Shown here one piece after another: positions 4,274-29,914 of a DNA stretch of 52,906 nt. Both the position numbers and the translations under genes were made by a program. The notes beneath the pieces were generated by a model. It ran no database searches, was not told the DNA's origin, and was given only the letters and a program-made list of their open reading frames with translations. How positions within the stretch are numbered: the first letter of the stretch is position 1; every line of letters begins with the position of its first letter. This stretch comes from a bacterium (GTDB taxonomy: Bacteria; Patescibacteriota; Minisyncoccia; CAIUEV01), in assembly GCA_021779915.1 (NCBI GenBank), contig JAJXZR010000044.1, positions 1-52,906 on the forward strand, in the 5' to 3' direction.

Positions 4274-5813
4274 TTTTTTGCTTATTCTTCTTATTGTTAA
4301 TTATAAAAAGTACTAAGACCAACAAAGAAAATATTAAAATCAAAAGAACAGCAACTCCCAAATTATTCCCTGCCCTCCCCATAACTTTAGAAACAGTGCC
4401 AGGTTTTGAATCCGCGTTTTTATATTCGAAGTTGCTGACACTGTCCACCGCACACCCGAAAGTGGCTTCTTTGATGTCAGTAGGGACGTCTTTATCGTTT
4501 AGAATTTCTCCTTTTACCGTTATACAACCTTTCCCTCCTGAAATTTCCTGCCCCTTGGGAATAAAGCATCTGTCGTTTCCTGAGTTGATCACTCCCTGTC
4601 CGCTCCACGCCAACAAATTTACCCCTCTTCCATCCGAAACGGAAAGATTCACCCTTCCATTCAAACCACCTTCCCACTGGGCATCTCGAATACAAAAATA
4701 GGGAACCACATCTCCATTGTCTTTATTGAGGAAGCCTAGAAATCGAAATATTCCTCTGTGATTGTTTTTTATCACAACCCTGATGTCGCTACTAGAAGAA
4801 CTGCTGGGTGATACTAAAGAAATATTTAAATTATAAAGACTATTTGAATCGCCAGGATTAAAAGAAAATTTAATCGGAGTATCGGAGTTCCCTGGAAGCG
4901 ACAAGTCATCCTCTTTTTGAGAGATAACATCACCTGGATCCTCTTGACCCCATTTCGAGAGTGTATACTTGATTTTAGTTTGTTTCGTGTTTGAGTCATA
5001 ATTGGTGACTTTGCCTTCCACCGAGATGTCCTGACCTCCCTCAACCACCGGAGCCAGATTTCTATACGAGTACTCTTTTCCATTGACGGTAAGACTATTC
5101 TTGTCAATTTCGACACCCCTCTGATTCTGATTGTCTTTTTCTATGCTGAAATCTTGAGTTTTTGCAGCATTGAAAGTTGTAAGGGGAGTACCACTTAAAT
5201 CAAAACTTTGATCGGAATTCACATAGTAGGAAAAATAGTACTGTCCATCATTAATTTCTTCCGGTATTTTCCATTTGTAATTGAAATTACCTTCCTGTCC
5301 GTCTTTTAGTGTTATATTTTTTGCCAAATAAAATTCATCTATTAAGTAGTCTCCTTTGGCAGATTTTTCCGAATCAAGATCTTTTCGCCAAATTTGAACA
5401 AAGACTCCTAACTTGCTCGCTTCCGAAACTGAATAGTTCGAGTCAACTCTACAAACATTAGGGTTATTGATTTTCATCAGGCAGTCTTTTTGCAGTTTGG
5501 AAAGGATGTTTTTCCCTTGGAAAGAAAATTTCAATGTACCCGAAATGTTGATTGAATCCCCCTTCTTGAAGTTTTGTTTCGCCAGTTTCGCAAGGGATAA
5601 ATCAAAACTGGATATAGGATTCAAATAATAAGGATATACTTCCTCGGCAAGATTGGAAAAAGATGTGTCGTTCGGCAAGCTCTTGACATAAGAAGTGTAG
5701 GCGTTACTAAAATCATTTCCAATTTCAACTTTAGCGCTTGCAATCCCGAAATACAAAAAGACCGCGAACGCAAAGCACCCTCCTAACAGGATAAAAATTT
5801 TCTTATTTTGCAT
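4263..5813 (-). CDS. Type I membrane protein with large extracellular region
   Basis: 516 residues: an N-terminal signal or anchor (KIFILLGGCFAFAVFLYFG), about 440 extracytoplasmic residues with beta-rich stretches (SINISGTLKFSF, LTVNGKEYSYRN), then one C-terminal transmembrane helix (VAVLLILIFSLLVLVLFII) and a Lys-rich cytoplasmic tail. This is the topology of a membrane-anchored surface protein. It is the first gene of the likely operon with the two Cys-rich secreted proteins and could be their membrane partner, though nothing in the sequence proves that. I recognise no named family. Confidence 0.8.
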   Translation of the reverse strand: MQNKKIFILLGGCFAFAVFLYFGIASAKVEIGNDFSNAYTSYVKSLPNDTSFSNLAEEVYPYYLNPISSFDLSLAKLAKQNFKKGDSINISGTLKFSFQGKNILSKLQKDCLMKINNPNVCRVDSNYSVSEASKLGVFVQIWRKDLDSEKSAKGDYLIDEFYLAKNITLKDGQEGNFNYKWKIPEEINDGQYYFSYYVNSDQSFDLSGTPLTTFNAAKTQDFSIEKDNQNQRGVEIDKNSLTVNGKEYSYRNLAPVVEGGQDISVEGKVTNYDSNTKQTKIKYTLSKWGQEDPGDVISQKEDDLSLPGNSDTPIKFSFNPGDSNSLYNLNISLVSPSSSSSSDIRVVIKNNHRGIFRFLGFLNKDNGDVVPYFCIRDAQWEGGLNGRVNLSVSDGRGVNLLAWSGQGVINSGNDRCFIPKGQEISGGKGCITVKGEILNDKDVPTDIKEATFGCAVDSVSNFEYKNADSKPGTVSKVMGRAGNNLGVAVLLILIFSLLVLVLFIINNKKNKQKNDK

Positions 5814-5846
5814 TTTATTTTTTTACAAAGAATTTTATATTATTCT

Positions 5847-5876
5847 ATTCTAGCACAAAATAAAATTTGTTGTCTA
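5847..5876 (-). promoter_or_regulatory. Candidate sigma-70 promoter for the 5813-1 operon
   Basis: On the minus strand a TAGACA box (5871-5876) and a TAGAAT box (5847-5852) are 18 nt apart, about 34 nt upstream of the ATG at 5813. Position and spacing fit; no Shine-Dalgarno sequence follows. Confidence 0.45.
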
Positions 5877-5894
5877 ATTCGATTCGATCTATTC

Positions 5895-6014
5895 ATAAAT
5901 ATTTAGTCTGCTGAGTTTGTTTTTGATTCTTCTTACTGTGAGGACTATTCGAGCGAAGCGAGTTCCGCAACAGGAAGAAGAATAAAAAACAAACTCAGCA
6001 GACTAAATATTTAT
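5895..6014. repeat. Long intergenic inverted repeat (about 40-nt arms)
   Basis: The arms at 5895-5934 and 5975-6014 are almost fully complementary, with a 40-nt loop that contains a GAGCGAAGCGAG core. It lies between the ftsA-like gene and the gene starting at 5813, both on the minus strand, so it could terminate or process the transcript. It may also be a small non-autonomous element; similar hairpins occur in other gaps of this window. Confidence 0.8.
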
Positions 6015-6031
6015 ATTCCCGCTCAAAAATT

Positions 6032-7297
6032 TTAATTTTGCATCATTCTAACCACTTTGCGCATTATACTGCCAAGAACCCTTTCTTCTCCGACAAGATC
6101 CAGCGCGAGGTTGGCTAATCCCATAGGAGTGATATCTTGAAAGTCATTGAGTTTTCCGGTCTTGTCAATGATATTGATTACGTCTCTTGGGTCAATGAAA
6201 TCAACTTTAATGTTATTTCCGAAAGGTAAGTCTTCCGGCCATTTATTTTTCTCGAGTGTTCTTTTTATTTCCGGCAGGTGGGCACCGCCACCGCACAAGA
6301 GAAAGCGATTGGGAAGCAGGTCATCTCCCACAAATTCTCCCAGAGCCAGTTCTACTCCAGAAAGCCAAACCTTGGAGTCTTCTTCCATAATAAGGCGCAG
6401 TTTTTGCGTCAGATGCGGTCCCAATTCACCGCTTGAATACTTGATTTTTAGCTGTTCCGCTTCTTCAAAACTGATTCCCAGTTCCGTTGCAAGTCTTTTG
6501 GTAAAAGCTCTTCCACCGAGAGCGAACATTTTTGTTCCTTCAATTCCACCGTTCCTTACCACGGCGATATCCGTAGTTCCACCTCCAATGTCAAGAAATA
6601 TCGCAGAAAATTCCACGGCCGAGTCTGTTCCAAGGGCTCGAGCCACTGCATAAGGTTCGGCTGCAATGGAAAGAAGATCAAGATTAAGTTCATTGGTAAT
6701 ACTTTGGAGAGCCCCCAAATGCATCATAGGAGCATAAGAATTAAAAACCGACACTGACACTTCTTTCCCTTGGAATCCTAGGGGATTTGTTACTCTGTAA
6801 CCGTCAATTCGAACATCCACAATGGCCGCATTAATTAATTTTATATCAATCTCAGAGTGCCCGGTTTCCCAAGCCAATTGTTGTCTTACTCTATCAAAAG
6901 CTTTCCACTGAACTTTTTGCACGATATTTTTGAGCTCCGGCATATCGATTTTCAGCTGTGGCCGGGTTCTCTCATAATGCACCGTGACTGTTGTTCCTTT
7001 GACTAATTCTCCCGCAATTCCAACGATACACTGTTCAGGAACAAAATTCAAACCCTCAGAAGCTTTTTCGATAGCTTTTTGACAGGTCAATACCACTCCA
7101 GCAATATCTGCCACCGCCCCCGAAGTCATATGGCCGGATTTTTGCCTCTCTTTTCCCACCCCCACTACAATTCCTTTGCCGTCTTCACTGTCAATTTGAA
7201 AAATCAAAGCCTTAACAACTTCCGTCCCAATATCAAGAGAAAGCGCATAGTTGGATTTTTGTTTTTTTTGTCCGAAAAAAGATTGAAATATCCCCAT
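6032..7297 (-). CDS. Actin-like ATPase, FtsA/PilM family
   Basis: 421 residues with the actin-fold ATPase signatures: phosphate-1 motif LSLDIGTEVVKA near residue 20, phosphate-2 motif FLDIGGGTTDIAVVR near 235, and the adenosine motif LLCGGGAHLPEI near 335. An SHS2-like stretch (NPLGFQGKEVSVSVFNSY) sits between, as in FtsA and PilM. The C-terminus (SIMRKVVRMMQN) is a short amphipathic segment that could bind membrane, as in FtsA, which anchors FtsZ. PilM instead acts as the cytoplasmic platform of type IV pili. No pilN/pilO or ftsZ is adjacent, so the choice between the two stays open; the amphipathic tail slightly favours FtsA. It lies downstream of dnaN on the same strand, across a long hairpin. 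Confidence 0.85.
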   Translation of the reverse strand: MGIFQSFFGQKKQKSNYALSLDIGTEVVKALIFQIDSEDGKGIVVGVGKERQKSGHMTSGAVADIAGVVLTCQKAIEKASEGLNFVPEQCIVGIAGELVKGTTVTVHYERTRPQLKIDMPELKNIVQKVQWKAFDRVRQQLAWETGHSEIDIKLINAAIVDVRIDGYRVTNPLGFQGKEVSVSVFNSYAPMMHLGALQSITNELNLDLLSIAAEPYAVARALGTDSAVEFSAIFLDIGGGTTDIAVVRNGGIEGTKMFALGGRAFTKRLATELGISFEEAEQLKIKYSSGELGPHLTQKLRLIMEEDSKVWLSGVELALGEFVGDDLLPNRFLLCGGGAHLPEIKRTLEKNKWPEDLPFGNNIKVDFIDPRDVINIIDKTGKLNDFQDITPMGLANLALDLVGEERVLGSIMRKVVRMMQN

Positions 7298-7328
7298 TTT
7301 TTTATTTTGTCTCCAGAAATTAGTTCGT

Positions 7329-7436
7329 AATATTGTAGCTTTAAACTTGGAAGACTCCCTTTTTAAACGTGAAGGATTTTCTACCAGAAAATCACAGTTT
7401 AAAAAAGGAGTCTTCCAAGTTTAAAGCTACAATATT
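7329..7436. repeat. Long intergenic inverted repeat between dnaN and ftsA-like gene
   Basis: Arms 7329-7368 and 7397-7436 match at 39 of 40 positions. The 28-nt loop holds a second small hairpin (GATTTTCT/AGAAAATC). As RNA this would be a very stable stem downstream of dnaN, so it may end or attenuate transcription into the ftsA-like gene. No poly-U tract follows, so a classical terminator is not clear. Confidence 0.85.
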
Positions 7437-7494
7437 GCTTATTAGAAATCTAACTTGACAAACTTTATTAACTTTATGCACTTGATAAACTATT

Positions 7495-8610
7495 TTACTG
7501 CCTTATCGGCATCACTATATACAAAAAGTCTTCCACTTCTTTTTTGGTTTTTTCGTCAATTCCTCGAATCATTGAGGGTCCTTCACTTCCATTCAGAAAG
7601 AAAATAACTTCTTCTTGAGGCAGGCTTTGAAGACCATCCTGAAGAAATTGATAGTTAAAAACTACCTCTAATTTTCCTCCCTCCGTTTCGGCCTTGAGCA
7701 TAGAACTCTGCTCCCCCAATTCTCCGGAAACCGTGTGGAGAGTTATTTTATCATTTTCCAGTTTTATCTTGACATCTCTTGTCTGATGGGAAGAAAAAAT
7801 TCCTGCAAGTCTTAGGGCATTGACGAGCTCATCTTTTCCTATTCTCATTTTAGCCTTAAAATCCGAGGGAATAATCTGCCGGTATTCGGGGTATTGTCCC
7901 TCAATCAAGCGACTGACAAAATATACGTCTTCACCCTGAAAAGCAATTTGATTCTCTGAAGTAGTGACAGATATTTCTCTTTCATCTTCATAAAATATCC
8001 TTTCAATCTCTTGCATACTACGTCCCGGAATAATCAAAGTAATATCGTTCTCCGGTTTCTTGGAAATCTTTATTTTTCTTTCAGCCAACCTGTAACCGTC
8101 AGTTGCCGCCACAGCCAAACCGTCTTTGTTCAAAGTCAGGCAAATTCCCGTTAATTCCAATTTTGTTTCAAGGCTGGCTAGAGAAGGAATGACTCTTTTT
8201 AAAGTTTCGGCAAATATTTTTCCCTGTATTTTCCAAGTCAATCCTTCTTCCACCCTCGGAATAAGGGGAAAATCTTCAGCTGGAATAGTGCGGATTTTTG
8301 ATTCAAAATTATCGCTCCAAATCTTGAGGTTCTGACCTTCCATCTCTAAATTAATTTGTTCGTCTTTCAAGTTTTGAATTATGCCGGAAAGCAATTGGGC
8401 GGGAACAGTAATTTTTCCCTCTTTTTCGATTTTCGCCCGGACAGTACTGATAACCCCAATTTCCAAATTAGTAGCAACCAATTTCAAAATTCCCTTTTCC
8501 GCTTCAATAAGGATATTCCCTAAAATAGGAAGGGTAGGATTTTTGCCAATCGATCTTTCACAATGGGCAATTCCCCTTCGAAGATTATCACGAGTACATA
8601 AAACTTTCAT
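7495..8610 (-). CDS. dnaN: DNA polymerase III beta subunit (sliding clamp)
   Basis: 371 residues, the normal length for the bacterial beta clamp. The N-terminal KVLCTRDNLRRGIAHCERSIGKNPTLPIL segment, the central LAAxDGYRLAERK-type motif (VAATDGYRLAERKI, near residue 175) and the C-terminal VMPIRQ (family norm MPMR/L) are diagnostic of three clamp domains. The homodimeric ring tethers the replicative polymerase and other clamp-binding proteins to DNA. It is not next to dnaA or recF here, which fits the scattered gene order of CPR genomes. A good promoter candidate lies about 40 nt upstream of the ATG. Confidence 0.97.
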   Translation of the reverse strand: MKVLCTRDNLRRGIAHCERSIGKNPTLPILGNILIEAEKGILKLVATNLEIGVISTVRAKIEKEGKITVPAQLLSGIIQNLKDEQINLEMEGQNLKIWSDNFESKIRTIPAEDFPLIPRVEEGLTWKIQGKIFAETLKRVIPSLASLETKLELTGICLTLNKDGLAVAATDGYRLAERKIKISKKPENDITLIIPGRSMQEIERIFYEDEREISVTTSENQIAFQGEDVYFVSRLIEGQYPEYRQIIPSDFKAKMRIGKDELVNALRLAGIFSSHQTRDVKIKLENDKITLHTVSGELGEQSSMLKAETEGGKLEVVFNYQFLQDGLQSLPQEEVIFFLNGSEGPSMIRGIDEKTKKEVEDFLYIVMPIRQ

Positions 8611-16646: not shown

Positions 16647-17618
16647 TCAATTTAAACCAACAACCGAAGATTCCTCTTTGGTATCTTCTTTTAGGTTCTT
16701 ACGGTGGAATTGTTTATGTATATTACGCAGTTGCTTATCTGTTATATGCGTATAAATCTGAGTGGTACTGATGGAAGAATGACCGAGGAGCATTTGAACC
16801 GACCTGATATCTGCACCATTTTGAAGAAGATCCGTAGCAAATGAGTGGCGCAAAGTGTGCGGATGAATATTCTTAGAAATACCCGCTCGAAGGGCATGCT
16901 TTTTAACAATTCTTTGAATGGTTCTGACACTGAGACGTAAATTGTTCTGATCTTTTGTCTTGTGATGCCGAATGAAAAGAGCCGGATCCACATCCCTTCT
17001 CTTTTGGATATAGGCGTAAATTGCTTTCTGGGTTTCCGGAGAAATAAAAACCACTCTCCTTTTTCCTCCCTTGCCTTCCACTGTAAATTCATTTTTTTCC
17101 AAACGAAAATTCTCCCGATCTAAACTGGCTAATTCTGAAACCCGAAGACCAGAAGAAAAAAGCATTTCAAGAATTGCCTTGTCCCTAAGCTGTTCTAGAC
17201 CGTTCCCCCGGGGTGCATTAAGAAGCCTTTCAATCTCGTCTTTTTCTAAAAATTCAATTTCTTTTCTTTCCGTTTTTCCCAATTCAATTTGCGATGGTGC
17301 GGGCACTTCAATATTTTGCTTTCCTAAAAACTTTAAAAATCCCCTAAGAGCAATAATGTGATAGTCCTGGGTAATTTTTTTAAGAGGCAAATCTCCATTT
17401 TTAGCAGTTCTGTTAAGAAAAATACGATATTTTCTGATACTCTCTTCTGTAACATCTTTACTGGTAACTTCCCCTTTATTCAAATATTTTTCCAACCATT
17501 TAATAAAACGATCCAAATAACGATTATAATTATTCAAAGTCTTTGAGGCACGGTTCCTCTCAATTTCAAGGTATTCCAAAAAATCATTTTTAAGATGAGA
17601 AAGAGAGCTTTCTAACAT
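16647..17618 (-). CDS. Xer-family tyrosine recombinase
   Basis: 323 residues from the ATG at 17618 (MLESSLSHLKNDF). A longer frame would begin inside tRNA-Gly and is rejected. A core-binding SAM-like domain spans about 10-105 and the catalytic domain 120-300. Catalytic residues visible: R159 (SSGLRVSELA), a Lys in EGKGGKRR (K183 or K186), H254 and R257 (HPHTLRHSFATDL), H280 (LLGHSSI), and nucleophile Y289 (TTQIYTH). The length and motifs fit a single housekeeping XerC/D that resolves chromosome dimers. An integrase role is also possible because the gene abuts tRNA-Gly, but no element is bounded by att-like repeats in the expected order. Confidence 0.93.
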   Translation of the reverse strand: MLESSLSHLKNDFLEYLEIERNRASKTLNNYNRYLDRFIKWLEKYLNKGEVTSKDVTEESIRKYRIFLNRTAKNGDLPLKKITQDYHIIALRGFLKFLGKQNIEVPAPSQIELGKTERKEIEFLEKDEIERLLNAPRGNGLEQLRDKAILEMLFSSGLRVSELASLDRENFRLEKNEFTVEGKGGKRRVVFISPETQKAIYAYIQKRRDVDPALFIRHHKTKDQNNLRLSVRTIQRIVKKHALRAGISKNIHPHTLRHSFATDLLQNGADIRSVQMLLGHSSISTTQIYTHITDKQLRNIHKQFHRKNLKEDTKEESSVVGLN

Positions 17619-17645
17619 TTGTTTTTGTATACTGATGAAACATTT

Positions 17646-17720
17646 TGGAGCGGGTAACGGGATTCGAACCCGTCTCACCAGCTTGGAAGGCTAGGATAAT
17701 AGCCACTATACGATACCCGC
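17646..17720 (-). tRNA. tRNA-Gly (anticodon TCC), CCA encoded
   Basis: Acceptor GCGGGTA/TACCCGC, anticodon stem CTAGC/GCTGG with loop CTTCCAA (anticodon TCC), T-arm ACGGG-TTCGAAT-CCCGT, discriminator T, and CCA encoded at 17648-17646. It lies directly upstream of the recombinase gene on the same strand. Confidence 0.95.
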
Positions 17721-18110: not shown

Positions 18111-20723
18111 GTGGACATGGACAAAAAAAGAAAAACAAACTTTGGGCGCTTTTTAAGTTGGCAGAAGGCTTTGGTCTTTTTGTTGTTTTTTCTTTTTATC
18201 GTCCCGACCGCTTCTGCCGATTCAATTACTCCCAACACTTCAAGCGGGGGGTGGACTCGCACCCTTCAAACCCCTGGCAATGACCAATTGATCGGTCTAA
18301 ATTACAGTCTTAGAACTCTTTTGTGGACTTCCGGAGTTGTTTTGGAATCGGCTCAAAGCATTTTAACTCGTGTTTCGGATATTAGTTTTTATCAACAGCA
18401 ATTAGGTGGTTTCTATACTAAAAAAGAAACAGGGGCAAGTTCAAGTAGCAGTGCCCAAGGAGGGTGGAATGTGGTAAAAACCATTTGTAACATATCGGTG
18501 ATAATTTTGTTGTTGTTTATTGCTTTTGGAACTATTTTGAGAGTGGAAAGTTACAACTATAAATATTTATTAGTTAAATTGATTGTTGTCGCTCTTCTAA
18601 TTAATTTTAGTGGTGTTATTGCGGGGATAGTCCTGGATTTCAGCCATATTATTATGGGGATATTCTCAGATAAAATAACTAATATCGGACTAATTATTCA
18701 GAAAAATTCTAAGATTTTAGATGAATACGTTGCCAATACCGATTTAAGCGACATTGGACAAGTAACCAACAACTTGAGCGACAACATTACAAGAACCATT
18801 TCCAGAGTTAACGTCAATATGATTTTAGCATCCGTTTTAATGTTTATTTTGGGCATAACCGTTCTTGCGGTTGCTGTTTTTCTAATCGTGAGGACAGTCA
18901 GTCTTTGGCTTCTTTTCACCCTTTCTCCAGTGGCGCTGGCACTGGCGGTTCTTCCTCACACCAGGGTAACCAGTTTGAAATGGTGGGATGCCTTTCTTAA
19001 AAACGCTTTTGCCGGACCCTTGCTGTTTTTCTTCCTTTATTTGACTCTTTTTATTACAAACAATCTTAATATTCCTTCTGAAACCGCTGTCGCCGGAAAC
19101 GATAAATTTATTCTTTTTTCCAATTCAGGAACTTTTCTCCAATATATCTTTCTGGTTGTTCTTCTTTGGGCTAGCATTTTTCTCTCCCGATCTCTCTCGG
19201 TTGCCGGATCAGTCCAAGTAGTTGGTTATTTTAGAGATTTGGGCAGAGGAGAAAGAGGGATGCAAATTGTCAACAAGATTGTTGATTCTGGAGGGACGGC
19301 TCTTGGTAAAACTGGAGCAGGCAAAATACTTCATGAATGGACGGGAGCCCCCTTGCAAATCAAAGAAGGAGCTAATGCCCCCTTCGCGCCAACCGAAGCA
19401 GAGAAAGGGAAAAGAGGTTTTCAACCTGTGCTTAAAACCCAGAGTGACGCGACTCAAAAAGCTCTCAAAACCCTACTTAACCCCTCCGCCATTGGGAGGG
19501 TCCTTTCTATTGTTGATTCCAAAAGAAAAGGAGAAAACCTTTCAAAAATCGGAGGGAATCTTACTGATGCTGCCAAACTTGCCGCCATGAGTACAAAAGA
19601 TCCGGGAGAATTTCTGCGAACCCTATGGAAAAGATTTGAACCAAAATCAAAACCCACCGGTAGTTTTTGGAAAGACGCCAAGACTCTCAATGAAACAATT
19701 AATAAGGAAGTTGAAGGCCAAATGACGGTTAGGAGAGTATTTAATGAGATAGGTGTTCACAATCAAAAACTGGTAGACTTTCAAGCCAAGGACAGTAGCG
19801 AAAAAGAGGCTCAGATCTACAAGCTCGCTTGGACGGGCGGTCTTCCGGAGTATTTTAACAAACAGTTGAAAAAGCCCTATAACCCCCAAGAATTAGGAGA
19901 GCATATCAAAACCACCTTTGGAGAAGCAAAAGGAGGACAAGTGGCCGAAAAGCTTCAATCCATTGGGGAAATGAAAAAAGATCCAAGTCTTGCCGTAGCA
20001 GCATGGAACGGCAAAAAAGAAAAATTTGAAGTCGACGCAAAGGCTCTTGGGCAAAAACCGGCTACTGCCGTTGTGAAACCGGAAGATTTGAAAAAACTGG
20101 CTCCTCAAAGTATTCTCAATAAAAATGAACAGGGTTCTTATGTGGGATTCAATGATTTTGGCAAGCAGTTGCTTAAGGAAATGTCAGGAGAATATCTGAA
20201 AGAAATCGGCAATATGCGAGAAGATACAGTTAAGGCTATGGCCCAGGCATACGGAGCTTCCCAAAAGGATCTAGTCAAGGAACTTTCCAAGGGCATAAAA
20301 GGTGGTGGGACTGTTCAAGCTGATACAATCAAAGCTATCGGCAAGGCTCAGATGAGAGGAGCTTTTCACGTTGAAGAAGTACAGGCTCCCCACGCACAGA
20401 TTAGTTTGGGGCAAGAATTCTTGAACAAGGTTGCCAGCCGTGCTTTTGCCGGAAAAAGAGTTTCTACGGGCAAATTAAAAGTAGCTGATGCCAGTGAAAA
20501 ACCCAAGGCTTCTTCTTCGGATACTGGAATGATTCAAACTCCTGAACAAAGAAGGGTTCAGGAAGAATACGAGACCAGAGCCTTTGCTTCAAAACGTGTC
20601 AAAACTGGAAATGTCGAAGTGGCCTCAATAGAAGATGAAACCGGAGAAGATACCAGCCTTAAAGATAAGCAGAAATTCTTGATGATGGGTGGGAAGAATA
20701 TGACAGTGGAAGAAGGAGCGTAG
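18111..20723 (+). CDS. Polytopic membrane protein, VirB6/TrbL-like, with long soluble tail
   Basis: 870 residues. Residues 1-37 are a signal or first membrane helix (KALVFLLFFLFIVPTASA). Further helices lie at about 122-142, 150-180, 233-262, 264-282, 297-316 and 343-360. The conserved-looking WLLFTLSPVALALAVLP and KWWDAFLKNAF segments resemble TrbL/VirB6 channel proteins of type IV secretion systems. Residues ~375-870 are hydrophilic and probably cytoplasmic or periplasmic, with a repeated RAFAGKRV/RAFASKRV motif near the end. It heads the plus-strand locus containing three VirB2-like pilin fusions, which supports a secretion- or pilus-related role. The VirB6 assignment rests on topology and context only. 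The start could also be the ATG at 18117. Confidence 0.7.
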   Translation: MDMDKKRKTNFGRFLSWQKALVFLLFFLFIVPTASADSITPNTSSGGWTRTLQTPGNDQLIGLNYSLRTLLWTSGVVLESAQSILTRVSDISFYQQQLGGFYTKKETGASSSSSAQGGWNVVKTICNISVIILLLFIAFGTILRVESYNYKYLLVKLIVVALLINFSGVIAGIVLDFSHIIMGIFSDKITNIGLIIQKNSKILDEYVANTDLSDIGQVTNNLSDNITRTISRVNVNMILASVLMFILGITVLAVAVFLIVRTVSLWLLFTLSPVALALAVLPHTRVTSLKWWDAFLKNAFAGPLLFFFLYLTLFITNNLNIPSETAVAGNDKFILFSNSGTFLQYIFLVVLLWASIFLSRSLSVAGSVQVVGYFRDLGRGERGMQIVNKIVDSGGTALGKTGAGKILHEWTGAPLQIKEGANAPFAPTEAEKGKRGFQPVLKTQSDATQKALKTLLNPSAIGRVLSIVDSKRKGENLSKIGGNLTDAAKLAAMSTKDPGEFLRTLWKRFEPKSKPTGSFWKDAKTLNETINKEVEGQMTVRRVFNEIGVHNQKLVDFQAKDSSEKEAQIYKLAWTGGLPEYFNKQLKKPYNPQELGEHIKTTFGEAKGGQVAEKLQSIGEMKKDPSLAVAAWNGKKEKFEVDAKALGQKPATAVVKPEDLKKLAPQSILNKNEQGSYVGFNDFGKQLLKEMSGEYLKEIGNMREDTVKAMAQAYGASQKDLVKELSKGIKGGGTVQADTIKAIGKAQMRGAFHVEEVQAPHAQISLGQEFLNKVASRAFAGKRVSTGKLKVADASEKPKASSSDTGMIQTPEQRRVQEEYETRAFASKRVKTGNVEVASIEDETGEDTSLKDKQKFLMMGGKNMTVEEGA

Positions 20724-20855: not shown

Positions 20856-21818
20856 ATGTTAATTATCGTAAACATCCCCGCCTACAATGAAGCTAAAAAA
20901 ATTGGTACTGTCATTCGCTCTATTCCTCGAGAATTACCGGGGGGTATTAAAGTGAAAGTTCAAGTTTCTGACGATGGATCAGACGATAATACTTACGAGG
21001 TCGCAAAAGAAGCTAGTGCCGAATATGTATATAAATTTCCGCATAGAGGACTTGGGCTAACTTTTCGTTCAGGAGTAGAAAAGGCATTAGAAAGCGGAGC
21101 AGATATTATGGTTAATATCGACGCCGACGGTCAATTTTCCAAAGAGGATATTCCTAAACTAGTGGTTCCGGTAATTTCTGGCAAAGCGGACATGGTTGTT
21201 GGATCTAGGTTCTCCAAGGACAAAGAATTTAATCCGGAAGGAATACCTTTTATAAAAAGTTTTCTCAATCAGTTTGCCGCAAAAATGGTCGGCTTATTTT
21301 GGGGACAAAAGATCGATGATTTGACTTGTGGATTCAGGGCTTATAGCCGGGAGGTTTTAATGCGCCTCAATTTGAACCATCCTTTTACGTACACCCAGGA
21401 AACAATTCTGGACGCCCTTTCAAAAAACTTTCGAATCATCTGGATACCGGTAAGAGTCACCTATTTTGCCAAGAGAAAGTCGAGAATGGCTGGGAATGTT
21501 TGGCAGTTTGTTTTTAAGTCAACCAGAATAATCGTCAAAGTTCTGCGTGACACCAAACCATTAAAATTCTTTGGGATACCCGCACTTTTTTTGATTTTTA
21601 TTTCATTTTTGATTTATGGCATTTTTCTAATTGATTATATCCAAACATTAAAAGTAACTCCTTACCGCACCTGGTTGATTTTTGCAAGCGTTCTTCTGAT
21701 TCTGGGCATTCAACTTCTCATTTTTGCCTTGATTGCTGATATGATAAGAAGTCAAAGACAAGTGAGTGAGGAAAACTTGTATCTGATTAGGAAGGAGAAG
21801 TATGATGGAAAGAAATAA
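20856..21818 (+). CDS. Family 2 glycosyltransferase, polyprenyl-phosphate type
   Basis: 320 residues. The GT-A domain (1-230) shows IPAYNEAKKIG, VSDDGSDDNT, HRGLGLTFRSGVEKAL and the DxD-type metal motif NIDADGQF near residue 90, followed by MVVGSRF, as in DPM1-like enzymes that load a sugar onto polyprenyl phosphate. Two C-terminal transmembrane helices (about 243-263 and 275-298) anchor it to the membrane. Likely role: supply of lipid-linked sugar for envelope glycans or surface-protein glycosylation. Its place next to the pilin-fusion genes makes glycosylation of those proteins an attractive but unproven idea. Confidence 0.9.
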   Translation: MLIIVNIPAYNEAKKIGTVIRSIPRELPGGIKVKVQVSDDGSDDNTYEVAKEASAEYVYKFPHRGLGLTFRSGVEKALESGADIMVNIDADGQFSKEDIPKLVVPVISGKADMVVGSRFSKDKEFNPEGIPFIKSFLNQFAAKMVGLFWGQKIDDLTCGFRAYSREVLMRLNLNHPFTYTQETILDALSKNFRIIWIPVRVTYFAKRKSRMAGNVWQFVFKSTRIIVKVLRDTKPLKFFGIPALFLIFISFLIYGIFLIDYIQTLKVTPYRTWLIFASVLLILGIQLLIFALIADMIRSQRQVSEENLYLIRKEKYDGKK

Positions 21819-22041: not shown

Positions 22042-24483
22042 ATGGAAACGATAAATACAAATTTGATAACAAATTCCGATGCCGTCGTCAGTTGTTCCGG
22101 AAGCTCTTGCAATTTCTGTTCTTTTTTAGAAACTTTGAGCGGCATCTACAATTTTTTTCTCTTGACGATTTTTGTAGTTGCGATTCTTATTTTGATTCTT
22201 TCTGGAATAAATTATATTTTGAATAAAGGGGTAACGGAAAGTCAGAAAAAAAATCAGCAACGGATTAAATCCACGTTATTGGGATTTGTTTTAGTTCTTC
22301 TTGGCTGGCTTATTATCAACACCACTTATCGGGTTTTAGGATATCAGAACGCGGGAAATTGGTACCAATTTAAATGCAATCTTGAAGCTCCTCAAGTTCC
22401 AAAAATCGAGACTAATTTTAGTGCTTACTATCAAAACTTAAAAGTTTACAAAGAACTTGCCGATTTTCTAACCTCCGGAGACCAAAAAGCTACAATTAAA
22501 GGTCCAACCCTCTCTCCGGTTCTTCAAAAACAACTTCAAGATTTGACCGAAGGAGAAATTCTTCACATTCTTGCTCCTGCTCGCGTTTCCTCTTCCACAA
22601 CGCCCGGAGAATATACAGATCTTTTTCTGCCCCTTTTAACGGTTTCAAAGGACGGGAATCAAGTCAAACTAGATAGCTTGGGAGACTATACTAACCTTAT
22701 TCAAAATGAATATTCTCAGTCGGACAAAACCAACACTACCCTCAATACTCTTCTGGAAACCACTTCTGGAAACAAAGATACAATTCCTATTACCGCAAGC
22801 GGAAACCAGCTTCAATCCAGTGATTTTAACAACATTTACGGTCAAATTGCAGAAATCATAAAGAATCAACAGCCCGGTACCGATAAAAGTCTTAGCGGTC
22901 AACTGGCCGTCACTGCAAATAATAAGTCTAATGAGGATGTACAGAGGATAATCGCCATATTAGTGAGCGAGACTATGAAAACAACTGATCTTTTGATGCT
23001 GGAAAAAGAAGATTCCGTGAACGTTCTTAGTGATTCACAGGTCAGATGCCAGCTTTCAGGAGGGCAGTGGATTGATAATAATTGCAAATGTCCAAACGAC
23101 ACTACTCTTGTAAAAGATGTTTGCAAAAAGAAAAATGATTTGAAGGCTAAATGCGAACGAAGCCAAGGGGTTTGGACTTTAATAAAAAACGGTTATTCAC
23201 CGACTATTTCCTGTGGATACATTGAAAATCAATTAGGTACAAACCCTAATATTGGAGATTCTTATCAAAGAGCCAATATTTCAGATGTAAACACCGACGA
23301 AAGTTATTGCAAATGCCCCACTGGCACCTGTATTGACAGTGACGGAACCTGTCAGAAGCAAGAAGAAGATTCGGACAACGATAAGATTCCTAACGCTAAA
23401 GATAAATGTCCAAACACTTCCAAAGAAGATATTTCTCAAATAAATACCACGGAGGGAAGCCAATATTATGGTTGCTCTTGCAATGATATAGGCGTCCAGA
23501 CCAAAGTCTGCCCGCCCGATCAATGTTTAGGAGATTATAAAGTGACTTACCCAAAAGGATTAAAAACTTGCAACAAGGGAATTACTGAAACTTACTCCTG
23601 TAGCCCTTCCGGTCAAACTTACGATCCACTTTGTGCTAATCAGAATATGTTGGCAAACAGCAATAACAACCAAAACAAAAAAGCTAACTCAAATGGAAAA
23701 GGATCGGATAATAAAAATATCAATGATGATTTTTTTGGCAAAAATAGCAAGGGGAAAGATATTGGGGAAAACAAGCTAGGTCCTCCGGGAGGAAACGCCA
23801 TGTACAGCAAGCCAGAGGGAGTAAAAGCGGCTCTAAAGAGAATCCACGACACCGATCCGCTTCGCTATGAAATGATTTTCCGCTATGTTTCAACTATCGC
23901 ACCAACCAGCTTTTCTGGGGGACTTTGTTACGGTTGCGGATATGAAGAAGTAAACTACGGGTTGCCGGTGAAAATGTTAGATCAAGTGATCGTCCATGAA
24001 TCTACCCATTCAGGCCATTTCTGCTGGGGTATGAGTGAAACAACCGCTGAAGTTGAAAGGATCGCGGTTGGTAATGAAATAGGAAGTCTCGAGAGATCCA
24101 AAAAAGACGATAAAGGAAGAAACGTCAACGACATGCAAGAGTTTACTCGGCAATCAAAAGAAATTACCTATGAAAGTTCGCCTGCTAGGGGCTATCTCAG
24201 CCGTTTTATGCCTGAAGATAATCCCAAAGGAGATTTAATCGCAGAAGATTATCATTGGGCGATTTCCTATGCATTAAGCTATGGAGACAATACCAAAGGA
24301 CCGAATCATCACGGCTGGCCTCAAAAAGGATACCTTCTTGGTCTCAAAGACAGCGAACAACAGATTGTAGATAAGATAATTAAGAATATGGAAAGTTTCC
24401 CCTGCAGGTCCAAACCACCAAGCGACCTCCCCGAAATACCCGCCTGTAAAGACGCCCCGGAAATTAAGTTGGGAGGAAAATAG
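22042..24483 (+). CDS. VirB2-like pilin domain fused to Cys-rich region and HExxH peptidase-like domain
   Basis: 813 residues. Residues ~20-110 match the T4SS_pilin pattern: CNFCSFLETLSGIYNFF, two membrane helices, and a basic cytoplasmic loop (ESQKKNQQRIKSTLLG). Then comes a region shared with the two paralogs downstream (about 155-325), two CxxSxGxW-type Cys modules (about 335-450), a thrombospondin-3-like acidic repeat (DSDNDKIPNAKDKCPN, near 443) and an Asn-rich linker (535-565). The C-terminal domain carries H652-E653-S-T-H656, with Glu candidates for a third zinc ligand at 666, 670 and 672. It is probably a membrane-anchored extracellular metallopeptidase; activity is inferred from the motif only. 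Confidence 0.8.
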   Translation: METINTNLITNSDAVVSCSGSSCNFCSFLETLSGIYNFFLLTIFVVAILILILSGINYILNKGVTESQKKNQQRIKSTLLGFVLVLLGWLIINTTYRVLGYQNAGNWYQFKCNLEAPQVPKIETNFSAYYQNLKVYKELADFLTSGDQKATIKGPTLSPVLQKQLQDLTEGEILHILAPARVSSSTTPGEYTDLFLPLLTVSKDGNQVKLDSLGDYTNLIQNEYSQSDKTNTTLNTLLETTSGNKDTIPITASGNQLQSSDFNNIYGQIAEIIKNQQPGTDKSLSGQLAVTANNKSNEDVQRIIAILVSETMKTTDLLMLEKEDSVNVLSDSQVRCQLSGGQWIDNNCKCPNDTTLVKDVCKKKNDLKAKCERSQGVWTLIKNGYSPTISCGYIENQLGTNPNIGDSYQRANISDVNTDESYCKCPTGTCIDSDGTCQKQEEDSDNDKIPNAKDKCPNTSKEDISQINTTEGSQYYGCSCNDIGVQTKVCPPDQCLGDYKVTYPKGLKTCNKGITETYSCSPSGQTYDPLCANQNMLANSNNNQNKKANSNGKGSDNKNINDDFFGKNSKGKDIGENKLGPPGGNAMYSKPEGVKAALKRIHDTDPLRYEMIFRYVSTIAPTSFSGGLCYGCGYEEVNYGLPVKMLDQVIVHESTHSGHFCWGMSETTAEVERIAVGNEIGSLERSKKDDKGRNVNDMQEFTRQSKEITYESSPARGYLSRFMPEDNPKGDLIAEDYHWAISYALSYGDNTKGPNHHGWPQKGYLLGLKDSEQQIVDKIIKNMESFPCRSKPPSDLPEIPACKDAPEIKLGGK

Positions 24484-24737: not shown

Positions 24738-27700
24738 ATGAAAAAAAACTACCTATCCCTCCTCCCCATCTCTATCGCCCATGCTGCCACTTCAGGTGGA
24801 ATATGGGACTTGCGGGCTTTTGATTTTGCGGGTCTTTCTGTAAAATCTCCAGGGGGAATACTTCTGTTTTTTGTCAGTTGGTCAATTTCTATAATAGGCC
24901 TTTTGGGGATTATTGCCTTCATTTATGCCGGGTACACATATCTTGTTGCCGGCAATGATGCTGATAAAGCAGAGCAAACAAAGAAAATTATTCTTTACTC
25001 GGTTATCGGAATTATTGTTTCCATTTTAGGTCTAGCAACCATAAAAACCGTCAGCGATCTTATGGATAGTCACAAAAATACCAATGAGAATATAGCGGGT
25101 CGAATTTCTCCTTCCACCCAATCTATTTCGGAGCTAGTATCAAATTCTCAAAACACTGGGCAAGTTAGCGCCGTTATCCCAAAAAATACTTCTCTGGAAG
25201 AAATCCAAAAAGCTCTTCAGGATTTACCGGAAGGAAAAACTATCTCTTTTACTGCATCCTCATCTGAAGGAGCCTTTACAGTTCTCACTTTTAAGAAAGA
25301 AAACGGTCAAGTTAACCTTGTTTATATTGACAATGACAGATTGAAAGGTTTGTCTAAAAGTACCAATGACAACCAATCATCCTATTTTGACTCTTTGATT
25401 AAAACTGCGAAAGCAGATGATTTACTCACTTCCGGAACTCTCAGCAAAGATCAGCTTGTATCGGTTTTAACCTCTCTTTTAAATCTTCTACAGTCCAATG
25501 ATAACAATGTTATCACAATGATCACCGACCCTTACGTCAATGATTTTTCAAGCCCTTTTAGCTTTTCTGAGACTGTCTCCAGATGTATCTCTACCGGAGG
25601 AATTTGGTATAGGTTCACCAATTCCTGCACCGCGCAAAACAGCCGATGCAACAGTACTACAAACAGCAATTGTTCTACATTAGGAATTAATCCGGTTGAA
25701 AGTTGTCAATGCGCCGATGGAGAATGCACTGACAGAACAGGAAATTGCGTTGCTATTTCTAATACCAACTCAAATACTAACACCAATACAAATACCAATA
25801 CTAACTCATCTTATTCAGATTCGAGCTCGGATAATCCCTGCTTTAATGCCACTTTATGTACTAATTATGGAGGATATTGGAACGGCTCTAATCAAAGCAA
25901 TATTGAATGTCGTTGTCTTTCACTTCCTTTGTCTAACGTAAATACTAACACAAACTCATGGTCAGGCTCTAGAGAAAATTATTACAAGGGTTTGTGTGAA
26001 AATTCCGGAGGAACATGGGATAATTCTTGGTTCAATAATGGCCCTAGATTATTCTCTGACGGAACCAACCAATGTTCCTGCAGTTGTAATGGATGTTCCT
26101 GCTGGGGGACAGATCAAGCTCAAATTTCCGATTCAAGTGCATTGCAAACCGTAGTCAACAGCACTGGCGCAGCTGATTACCTTTCCCAATGCAGCACAAA
26201 CTTCTACTTCAATCCAAATATAAGCCGTAATTTTTTTGGTGGATTTCATTTTCCAGGTAAAAAACATGGCACATGCACCTGCTCCACAGGAAAAGTGCTT
26301 GATGGTTATGGAAAATGCGTTGACACAAGTAATAATACCGAGGTAAGCGCCTGTACCAACTCAGGTGGGGCTTGGACTTTGCTTTCCGGATGCTGTGGAA
26401 GAGAAAAACAAAAATGCGGATCGGATAATTTAATCTGTTCCTGCTTGTTTGATTCTCCTCAAGTTTTGGGATGTGCGTGTCCGGATGGACAATGTGTTGA
26501 CGGAAATGGGCAGTGTAAATCGAAGGATTCCACTTCCGAGAAAATAACTTGTGAGAATTCCGGAGGAACTTGGATAGCACAAGGTGGTAATGGTTGGGTA
26601 AGACATATATGCCATTGTCCAGATGGAAAATATTTGGATTCGAGTTCAAACGGGAAATGCACTGACACAACCTTTCCAACATCTTCTTGCCATGGAAAAG
26701 TCGACATTGGAAAGATGCTTGGACAAGCTAGTTGGGCTTCTTGTATTGACATAGACACATTAAAGTCCAATTGTACTTCAAGCAACGGACAATGGATGAA
26801 TTATGGGCAAGGTTATCATGCAATGTACAATTATTCCCATGATTATCCAAGTAATTTTTGCGGAAAATCTACCTCGGCATTTTATAAACAAGAAAATTGT
26901 GACGGACCAGATGGTCCCTGCTCCTCACAAACTTATCCTTGGTTAGGATGCAGGTGTCCCGGGAGCCAATGTCTTGACAGCCAGGGAAAATGCACAGGAA
27001 ACATTGGAGATGATACCACTTTCACCGACTGTAAATCGGATTATCAATGTTTTTACAAAATACTCTCAGGAGGTGGACAAGCAAAACTAACTATTTCCGA
27101 AATGAATTATTTCCGTGGCTCTCGAATCAAAGAAACCAGCGAAATAAGGGGGATTCCCAACGGAAGCGGTTTTGATGTGACTATGACAGTTCTAAATTTG
27201 GAAAGAATGGATCAAAATAAAAGTCTTGCAAGTGGAGTTATCTCTGATGACACGCTAAATCAGTGTCCGAACTTATTAAATAATCTGTACCAAATCGAAG
27301 GTAAAAGTACAACTTGCAAAACTGGCGGAACCACGACGGACTGTGGCGCAAGCGCAATAGCCGTCTGCACACCTAGTATATCCACCGCCATGACGGGAGT
27401 TCGTTATTTAGTTCAAAATGGACTAACTAATTCAAATATTACGAACTATTCTTGTCAAGGAAATCTTATTACCAAAATGAAAGAGATTTGTGGAACACCT
27501 AACTTTCCAGAAGGACCAGTCGCTTTTAAACCGGCTATCTATCTTTACCCTCAAAGAAATATAGAGGTAGGTGTTACTCTTGGTATTAACGGAGAAATAA
27601 TAAAAAGCGATCCTGAATACCCTCAAAACGGTTGGAAAGTGAAGGCAACACCCAGTAGTTTAATAGACGGCAAATATGATTATTTGTTCTATGAGAATAC

Positions 27701-28055
27701 CTTGAATAAATTAGATCTTCCTAAAGAGGGTTGGGTTGTTAAAAAAGAAGATCTAAATCAATGGTTTAATGATAATTTGCAAAAATTAGGATTGAACGAG
27801 AAGGAAAGTGCACAATTCAAGGAATATTGGTTGGGAGTTCTAAACAAGGCTAATTATTATGAAATAAAGCTTCTGAGTGATCAATATTTGAAAGAAAATA
27901 TGAATCTAAAAATTAGTCCTCAGCCAGACACAGTTATCCGTCGAAATTTCTATTTCAAACCACTGCAAGAAAAAACAGACCTAAAAGAACCGATTATTAT
28001 TACCCCGGAAAGAAAAGGATTCACAGTAGTAGAATGGGGAGGAATAATGGATTAA
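24738..28055 (+). CDS. Giant VirB2-like pilin fusion with Cys-rich modular ectodomain
   Basis: 1105 residues. The N-terminal segment (to about 112) has two membrane helices around YLVAGNDADKAEQTKKIILYSVIG, a VirB2/TrbC-like pilin pattern. Residues 145-275 form a domain shared with the gene at 28094. An Asn/Thr linker (about 340-358) is followed by repeated Cys modules of the form C-x2-SGG-x-W ... C-x-C-P-x-G-x-C-x-D-x2-G-x-C through about 750. The last ~175 residues start KPAIYLYPQRNIEVGVTL and are Cys-free; they are absent from both paralogs and look like a separate beta-rich domain. Predicted: membrane-anchored, mostly extracellular, possibly an adhesin. No catalytic motif seen. There is no Shine-Dalgarno. 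Confidence 0.8.
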   Translation: MKKNYLSLLPISIAHAATSGGIWDLRAFDFAGLSVKSPGGILLFFVSWSISIIGLLGIIAFIYAGYTYLVAGNDADKAEQTKKIILYSVIGIIVSILGLATIKTVSDLMDSHKNTNENIAGRISPSTQSISELVSNSQNTGQVSAVIPKNTSLEEIQKALQDLPEGKTISFTASSSEGAFTVLTFKKENGQVNLVYIDNDRLKGLSKSTNDNQSSYFDSLIKTAKADDLLTSGTLSKDQLVSVLTSLLNLLQSNDNNVITMITDPYVNDFSSPFSFSETVSRCISTGGIWYRFTNSCTAQNSRCNSTTNSNCSTLGINPVESCQCADGECTDRTGNCVAISNTNSNTNTNTNTNTNSSYSDSSSDNPCFNATLCTNYGGYWNGSNQSNIECRCLSLPLSNVNTNTNSWSGSRENYYKGLCENSGGTWDNSWFNNGPRLFSDGTNQCSCSCNGCSCWGTDQAQISDSSALQTVVNSTGAADYLSQCSTNFYFNPNISRNFFGGFHFPGKKHGTCTCSTGKVLDGYGKCVDTSNNTEVSACTNSGGAWTLLSGCCGREKQKCGSDNLICSCLFDSPQVLGCACPDGQCVDGNGQCKSKDSTSEKITCENSGGTWIAQGGNGWVRHICHCPDGKYLDSSSNGKCTDTTFPTSSCHGKVDIGKMLGQASWASCIDIDTLKSNCTSSNGQWMNYGQGYHAMYNYSHDYPSNFCGKSTSAFYKQENCDGPDGPCSSQTYPWLGCRCPGSQCLDSQGKCTGNIGDDTTFTDCKSDYQCFYKILSGGGQAKLTISEMNYFRGSRIKETSEIRGIPNGSGFDVTMTVLNLERMDQNKSLASGVISDDTLNQCPNLLNNLYQIEGKSTTCKTGGTTTDCGASAIAVCTPSISTAMTGVRYLVQNGLTNSNITNYSCQGNLITKMKEICGTPNFPEGPVAFKPAIYLYPQRNIEVGVTLGINGEIIKSDPEYPQNGWKVKATPSSLIDGKYDYLFYENTLNKLDLPKEGWVVKKEDLNQWFNDNLQKLGLNEKESAQFKEYWLGVLNKANYYEIKLLSDQYLKENMNLKISPQPDTVIRRNFYFKPLQEKTDLKEPIIITPERKGFTVVEWGGIMD

Positions 28056-28093: not shown

Positions 28094-29914
28094 ATGAAAA
28101 AGAGCAAAAATATCGATTCCCCCATTATGCCTGTTTACGCCACTGTTTCAGGAGGGGGTTGGAATTCGGATTCATTAGGTGGATTCGGGCTTTCGGGAAG
28201 ATCTGTGTCAGAAATACTTCTTTCCTTTATTGATTGGTCAATAATAATGATTGGTTTAATTGGGATAATTGCTTTCATTTACGCAGGATATACTTATCTA
28301 ACTGCTGGGGGAGAGAAAGATAAAATAGAACAAGCTAAGAAAATAGTGGTTTATGGAATTGTAGGTGTTGTCGTTTCGGTCTTGGGATTAGTAGCAGTCA
28401 CAACCGTTAACAATATTATGGGGGGAGGAAAAAATCAAACTGCCAGTATTCCCGTACAATCAATCAGTGTTTTGGTAGAAAATTCAAAACAGAAAAAGAC
28501 ATCGCAGGCAATCTTGCCACAAAGCACTTCTGCAAAAGAGCTAGAAACCGCTCTCAATAACTTGTCTGAAGGAGAAATAATCTCTTTCTCTTCCTCTGAT
28601 CGTTCAGGAAAGGATGCAGGAGAAATAGTGACTTTTAAAAAGGAACAAGGAAAAATTAAATTAATCAAAATTGATCAAAAAAAGATTCAGGATTTAATAG
28701 GAAGAAAAGCTTCTTTCAATTTAATTCCAAGTGTTTTTGCCTCGATTTCAGCCCCTCCAGGAGATAATTGTGTTATTAACTCAAGTGGCGATGGATGGGA
28801 TTGTCCCGATTCTCCGATTGTTGATGCTACAACAATAAACAGTCTTTCAATTGAAGAATTAAGACAAATATTGTCCTTTATCATAGCAATAATTCAAACC
28901 AGACAACCCGTGATTTCAATAATAGATAATCCTTTAGGTACTGGAAACGGAGATCCAATCCAAGATCCTTGTCAAAGTCAAAGTACTTGTGAAGAAATGG
29001 GTGGCGTTTGGGGAGCAAATAATAATTTCCAGACTGTTAAAGTGGATACTGGGAATGGCACTGCAGCCACTAGCGGTAATTGTCAATGTACTTTTCCTGA
29101 TTCGTCTCCGACGACAATAAATGGCTCGGAACAACAAAATTGCGAAAATTCCGGTGGGAGATGGATGGATGCTATTGATGCACCTATGTATTCCTATTGT
29201 GCTTGTCCAGGCGATTCGGAAGCAAGTAAGGCTCCACATGAAAGAAAAACTTATCCAAAGAGTTGTAATCCTGAGCCTACCGGTAATAGTGGCACACCAA
29301 CGACAGCGAATAGCAAAAAATGTTTGGCTTCTGGGGGAGACTGGATTCAATTTGCAAATTATACCGTAGCTAATCAAGCAAAATGCGACAATCCTTCTGC
29401 CGGGGTAATCAAACTATGGGATCCTGTTTATGATTGTCAATGCCCAACTGGTCAGTGTGTAGATAAAGACGGAGGATGTACGAGTGAAGGAGCTACTGAT
29501 ATACCAAAAGATGAAAAACTTGCCTGCACGAGTACTGGTGGAACGTGGGATGACAGAACAGATGTTCACATTTGTCTTTGTCCAACAGGTACTTTTATGA
29601 GCAATGGTTATTGCATTTCAGGAGAAGTTCCTGGGACTATTAACAAAAAACCTGGTATGGACAAGCCAAAAACTGATACAGGGGATGTAAATTCAACCAA
29701 TTCTTGTAAAAATCAAACCGTGTGCGAATCGGAGGGAGGATATTGGATAAATAATAATATGCCTCATTATAATGATGGCAATTGCCGTTGTTTGTTTCCT
29801 GGCGATGATTGTTTAAGTAAAAGAAATTGTGAAGCTGCAGGCAAACTCTGGAGAGAGAATTCAGCTACTGCAACTACAACAGACCCATGCTCGTGTGTTT
29901 TTGGAATGGAGTAA
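28094..29914 (+). CDS. VirB2-like pilin fusion with Cys-rich ectodomain, shorter paralog
   Basis: 606 residues starting 38 nt after the previous gene. It keeps the same order: SGGGWNSDSLGGFGLSGRSV, two helices around YLTAGGEKDKIEQAKKIVVYGIVG (about 38-108), the shared domain (ILPQSTSAKELETALNNL to about 215), an IxDNP segment, then at least five C...GGxW Cys modules to the C-terminus (CSCVFGME). It lacks the C-terminal domains of its two paralogs, so these genes look like one anchored scaffold with different tips. Tandem duplication is the simplest origin. Confidence 0.8.
   Translation: MKKSKNIDSPIMPVYATVSGGGWNSDSLGGFGLSGRSVSEILLSFIDWSIIMIGLIGIIAFIYAGYTYLTAGGEKDKIEQAKKIVVYGIVGVVVSVLGLVAVTTVNNIMGGGKNQTASIPVQSISVLVENSKQKKTSQAILPQSTSAKELETALNNLSEGEIISFSSSDRSGKDAGEIVTFKKEQGKIKLIKIDQKKIQDLIGRKASFNLIPSVFASISAPPGDNCVINSSGDGWDCPDSPIVDATTINSLSIEELRQILSFIIAIIQTRQPVISIIDNPLGTGNGDPIQDPCQSQSTCEEMGGVWGANNNFQTVKVDTGNGTAATSGNCQCTFPDSSPTTINGSEQQNCENSGGRWMDAIDAPMYSYCACPGDSEASKAPHERKTYPKSCNPEPTGNSGTPTTANSKKCLASGGDWIQFANYTVANQAKCDNPSAGVIKLWDPVYDCQCPTGQCVDKDGGCTSEGATDIPKDEKLACTSTGGTWDDRTDVHICLCPTGTFMSNGYCISGEVPGTINKKPGMDKPKTDTGDVNSTNSCKNQTVCESEGGYWINNNMPHYNDGNCRCLFPGDDCLSKRNCEAAGKLWRENSATATTTDPCSCVFGME

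Follow-up and report, generated by a model that had tools for sequence, protein, structure and literature searches.

A conserved HExxH domain of predicted zincin-like fold on a VirB2-like pilin anchor in one family of Patescibacteria: a candidate surface hydrolase with a possible role at the cell wall

An 813-residue patescibacterial protein that begins with a segment resembling VirB2-type pilins and ends in a domain with an HExxH motif raises the question of what such a domain might do on the outside of the cell. The stretch of DNA analysed here (the window; 52,906 nucleotides) is the whole of contig C42 of a genome of 1.12 Mb in 48 contigs. An earlier note on it had proposed a metallopeptidase-like domain held outside the membrane by a pilin-type anchor, which might process neighbouring Cys-rich proteins or act on a partner cell. 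The protein consists of a Cys-containing N-terminal stretch with two transmembrane (TM) segments, a long middle region with Cys-rich stretches and the C-terminal HExxH domain (Table 1). The HESTH sequence at 652-656 and the three acidic residues proposed as a third zinc ligand, E666 (+14), E670 (+18) and E672 (+20), lie where that note placed them; the interval that it gave for the domain, 23760-24480, does span residues 573-813, although it starts at a base that is not in frame with the gene.

Table 1. Features of the HExxH locus (window positions) and copies of the H...SxGC domain (positions within the named loci).
Feature	Position	Strand	Basis or remark
VirB6/TrbL-like membrane protein, upstream of the HExxH gene	18111..20723	+	homologue also upstream in G002 and G003
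Family 2 glycosyltransferase	20856..21818	+	same position in G002 and G003
813-aa pilin-anchored HExxH protein	22042..24483	+	open frame read
VirB2/T4SS_pilin-like two-TM anchor, residues 30-93	22129..22320	+	PF18895 match and TM scan
Thrombospondin type 3-like stretch, residues 437-463, in the Cys-rich middle region	23350..23430	+	below Pfam cut-off
HExxH domain, residues 577-813, no named family	23770..24480	+	homologues; zincin-like predicted fold
HESTH, residues 652-656 (H652, E653, H656)	23995..24009	+	invariant 8/8
E672, candidate third ligand at +20, following helix	24055..24057	+	invariant 8/8; model
1105-aa pilin-anchored Cys-rich protein, no enzyme recognised	24738..28055	+	
606-aa pilin-anchored Cys-rich protein, no enzyme recognised	28094..29914	+	
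H...SxGC domain copies	L039:5179-5895; L043:1675-2421; L048:4654-5313; L050:2537-3262		
H...SxGC domain copies, rest	L051:4731-5414; L053:1736-2455; L054:1753-2496		

Eight homologues of the HExxH domain were recovered, two in each of four genomes (the window's own, G001, G002 and G003) of a single family of Patescibacteria near Ca. Moraniibacteriota, and the statements on conservation made below rest on these eight sequences. A class-wide search found homologues in 4 of 383 genomes, which are all the genomes of this family in the set and have two copies each, while a phylum sample of 379 genomes, which overlaps the class sample, gave a strong match only in the window's own genome. Public genome contigs yielded three homologous loci, in three of these same genomes, and no homologues were found in viral contigs or phages. 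Matches in G019 (E 6e-4, with two in-frame stops) and in G336 and G146 (E 3.8e-4 and 9.3e-4, 18-19 bits) were dropped; the G146 frame encodes a short protein whose HExxH lies in another sequence context, which we take to be YgjP-like. Pairwise identity across the domain ranges from 28 to 63%, and H652, E653, T655, H656 and E672 are invariant throughout. The motif singled out in the earlier note is thus kept in all eight homologues, and of its three candidate ligands only E672 holds, the position of E666 being Glu in 2/8 and that of E670 in 3/8. Cys 629, 632 and 661 are present in seven homologues and are all Ser in the eighth, a joint loss that would fit partners in disulphides or in a shared site. 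The catalytic domain of one second copy (G003b) falls apart from the other second copies, with mixed support, and no claim of domain swapping between scaffolds is made on this account.

No sequence library recognised the domain: there was no match over the cut-off to any peptidase family, PDB sequences searched by profile yielded nothing beyond chance level (best E 0.29), and the best PHROGs match (E 0.018) occurred in one of the eight members. The HExxH oxygenase model TIGR04267 likewise stayed below its cut-off, with a best E of 0.26 in a single member. AlphaFold2 models of two members, built from 8-row alignments, reached pLDDT values of 81.9 and 78.5 and pTM values of 0.85 and 0.81, and share the same order of main elements, namely strands, the HExxH helix and then a helix bearing the invariant Glu (67-85 and 92-104 for the two helices in the first model). 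An HExxH helix followed by a helix that carries an invariant Glu is a class feature of the gluzincins. Foldseek searches against solved structures gave no match at E <0.001 for either model, the best for the second being M32-type carboxypeptidases (E 0.058), and BFVD gave no match at E <0.001. In a second look with VIA, the ChlB HExxH oxygenase domain ranked first for both models (Z 8.8, rmsd 4.2, 139 aligned; Z 8.3, rmsd 3.5, 136 aligned), at a Z near 8 that in VIA can reflect a common arrangement. For the second model it was followed by SjiH-Ni (Z 7.1), and then came zincin-like or gluzincin peptidases, i.e. 3e11 (Z 5.1), lethal factor of M34 (5.5), M32 (about 4) and M1 (about 3.3), with M3 peptidases also among the matches.

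The comparison with gluzincin folds that the earlier note had suggested therefore returns zincin-like matches, with HExxH and E672 on successive predicted helices. This arrangement is what the domain shares with the gluzincin peptidases (M32, M34, selecase, M1), from which it differs in having no detected sequence similarity to them and modest Z scores (about 3-5.5). The ChlB/TIGR04267 oxygenases offer the closest predicted fold together with an HExxH motif, but the domain misses their sequence model and is predicted to lie at the cell surface. According to the available text of PMC12636437, the alpha-ketoglutarate-dependent HExxH oxygenases fold in a manner that recalls the zincins and one of them also hydrolyses peptides; because of this we take the prediction to be a zincin-like fold that holds a gluzincin-type site and leave the chemistry undecided by fold.

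The anchor matches PF18895 (T4SS_pilin) with E 6.8e-5 and 23.3 bits in hmmscan, where the cut-off is 26.6, and the same stretch scores 28.2 bits, above that cut-off, in the genome search; the NCBIfam Mbov_0395 pilin-like model matches with E 1e-4, below its own cut-off. In all eight HExxH proteins a Kyte-Doolittle scan finds two TM segments with a short, positively charged loop between them, K/R outnumbering D/E in each loop. The orientation of TM segments can be judged by the positive-inside rule, and since the loop is positive in every case, this implies that both ends of the protein, and with the C-terminus the HExxH domain, sit outside the membrane, in agreement with the placement in the earlier note. 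The N-terminal two-TM segment is like that of the VirB2-like pilins of Patescibacteria, but whereas most pilin-type frames measure about 100-250 aa, the window protein continues for a further 700 residues and ends in an enzyme-like domain.

Proteins built on the same kind of anchor provide further clues. Across the four genomes of the family, the listed open frames of more than 600 aa include 26 large pilin-anchored proteins, 24 with an anchor match at E up to 0.01 and, in addition, the two HExxH proteins of G002, whose anchors were not among the matches listed at that threshold. They comprise eight HExxH proteins, seven with an SLT transglycosylase match (L040 and L049 below the Pfam cut-off, the other five above it), two with a VanY/M15 domain (L037 and L055, both over the VanY cut-off), seven with a domain that we label H...SxGC and two with no recognised enzyme, both in the window. 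Known cell-wall enzymes were hence matched in 9 of the 18 that lack HExxH. The VanY/M15 D,D-carboxypeptidases share with the window protein the type of anchor, a Cys-rich arm and a C-terminal putative zinc peptidase, but their catalytic domain is unrelated to the HExxH domain. The H...SxGC domain has an invariant His and Gly-Cys in its seven copies (H...SxGC in most), none of which matched a known family in Pfam or profile searches; by eye it resembles an L,D-transpeptidase motif, a relationship for which the profile searches gave no support. Two further large Cys-rich proteins of the window's genome (L041:2235-4865 and 5249-7987), the first of which matched the middle region of the window protein, had no Pfam match, pilin anchor included.

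In other Patescibacteria all five large pilin-anchored proteins scanned (ten stretches among the matches listed, in a 39-genome phylum sample) have modules of the PKD, CARDB or Ig-like kind rather than an enzyme. Such modules occur on T4SS_pilin anchors in L062, L065, L066 and L068, in proteins of up to 1643 aa. As other Patescibacteria anchor these modules while the four genomes anchor wall enzymes, the pilin-type anchor serves generally to display proteins, and here wall enzymes on it are known only from the four-genome family.

The gene neighbourhood links the protein to type IV secretion. A VirB6/TrbL-like gene stands two genes upstream of the HExxH gene, or three if a 63-aa frame is counted, so that the latter is encoded with a T4SS gene. 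The order VirB6/TrbL-like gene, glycosyltransferase, HExxH gene recurs in three of the four genomes (the window's, G002 and G003); the window's TrbL-like protein is 55% identical to that of G003 and its glycosyltransferase 71% identical to that of G002. The two HExxH genes lie together in G001, G002 and G003, with a 153-aa frame splitting the pair in G002, while the second copy of the window's genome is on contig C27, directly preceded by a trypsin-like protease gene (L029:4586-6043). In G001 the neighbours of the pair include two TrwB-like ATPase genes; VirB4 is not adjacent to the window copy, and the gene of one SLT protein, L038, is two genes from that of a VirB4-type ATPase. In three genomes a tyrosine recombinase gene diverges from the VirB6-like gene (window 16647-17678, L026:1282-2220 and L027:14089-14925), recognised by a Pfam match in the window and by eye in the other two. 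The two Cys-rich genes downstream of the window's HExxH gene are not beside HExxH genes in G001 and G002, and in G003 the contig stops shortly beyond the HExxH genes; the 1105-aa product ends in an unmatched domain starting KPAIYLYPQ.

We propose, with a probability of roughly 0.5, that the protein is a gluzincin-type surface metallohydrolase with a VirB1-like, wall-cutting role near the T4SS or at contacts with a partner. This reading builds on the observed architecture, conservation, paralogue set and VirB6-like linkage and on the predicted fold, and from these we infer metal, catalysis, substrate and place of action. The two-TM segment would anchor the protein with both ends outside, and a flexible Cys-rich arm would reach across the wall, carrying the HExxH domain; H652, H656 and E672 might bind zinc, with E653 activating water. 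The domain could then cleave a peptide bond of the peptidoglycan or of a protein bound to the wall, at the point where the secretion machine or a partner-cell contact must pass the wall, be it the cell's own or the partner's. The protein belongs to a lineage-specific set whose members bear different cell-wall enzymes on one type of anchor, and this company points to the cell wall rather than to the neighbouring Cys-rich proteins, since the recognised enzymes on the anchor in these genomes are cell-wall enzymes. Against this, a shared anchor is weak evidence for substrate and speaks more to location; the nearest structures by Z are oxygenases rather than peptidases, no family model recognises the domain or the seven H...SxGC domains, Foldseek found no solved structure at E <0.001, the window copy has no VirB4 gene next to it, the sample of eight sequences in four genomes is small, and the anchored proteins scanned in other Patescibacteria have no enzyme.

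Several other readings have to be weighed against a wall-cutting role. The HExxH motif arises in 310 of 20,000 shuffles of residues 576-813 and by itself is only mildly unusual; it is taken as real because it is conserved across the homologues, and this conservation together with the zincin-like models largely refutes a chance motif in an unrelated fold, to which we assign a minimal probability. A surface-exposed HExxH oxygenase dependent on alpha-ketoglutarate would agree with ChlB and SjiH-Ni as the closest structures and with the sub-threshold TIGR04267 match. That match is weak and confined to one member, however, alpha-ketoglutarate would probably not be supplied at the predicted extracellular site, and the zincin core is common to both fold classes, and a related enzyme also hydrolyses peptides (available text of PMC12636437), making an oxygenase very unlikely.

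A catalytically dead module, with the zincin fold used for adhesion, would have parallels in the non-enzymatic modules that other Patescibacteria place on the anchor and in the inactive VirB1 homologues proposed as adhesins (available text of PMC12857230), but it appears improbable given that the four metal-site residues are kept in all eight members though identity drops to 28%. Possible, if doubtful, is a surface protease that cuts proteins rather than peptidoglycan, either the neighbouring Cys-rich anchored proteins or surface proteins of a partner cell. Gluzincin protein peptidases (M32, M34 lethal factor, M1, M3) are indeed among the structural matches, two Cys-rich pilin-anchored proteins are encoded directly downstream and the paralogue in the same genome adjoins the trypsin-like protease gene; yet the recognised enzymes on the anchor in these genomes are of cell-wall families, and the Cys-rich genes are absent from beside the HExxH genes of G001 and G002.

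The wall-cutting reading has precedents in known secretion systems. In Gram-positive T4SSs, membrane-anchored wall hydrolases let the secretion machine pass the wall (as described in the available text of PMC12857230). TraG of pIP501 and PrgK of pCF10, VirB1-type hydrolases of this kind, resemble the window protein as membrane-anchored extracellular T4SS wall enzymes, and its anchor-kin have SLT domains, one of them encoded close to VirB4. It differs from them in its VirB2-like, two-TM anchor and in having an HExxH domain in place of the CHAP, SLT, MUR or LytM domains named in that text; Pfam and profile scans found no SLT-, CHAP- or LytM-type wall hydrolase domain in it. The view that an anchored protease has no described counterpart thus gives way to these hydrolases and to the VanY/M15 zinc peptidase that the window's own genome places on a pilin-type anchor, while the titles and abstract openings surveyed hold no description of a pilin anchor combined with HExxH. 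A survey of Patescibacteria found VirB2 arrays present and VirB1 missing in most genomes with VirB2, and its authors concluded from this that VirB1 is apparently dispensable for the biogenesis of VirB2 pili (available text of PMC12102498).

As a more tentative and rather unlikely extension, one family of Patescibacteria might have come to use VirB2-like anchors for displaying a set of wall-cutting tools, namely a glycan cutter, a D,D-carboxypeptidase, an H...SxGC enzyme and hydrolases of a new HExxH family, possibly borne on a T4SS pilus and directed at a partner's wall. The HExxH domain would represent a family of enzymes not yet described, and wall enzymes fused to VirB2-like anchors in these four genomes offer concrete, expressible candidates that bear on how Patescibacteria cross their own and their hosts' walls and on what a relaxase-poor T4SS does.
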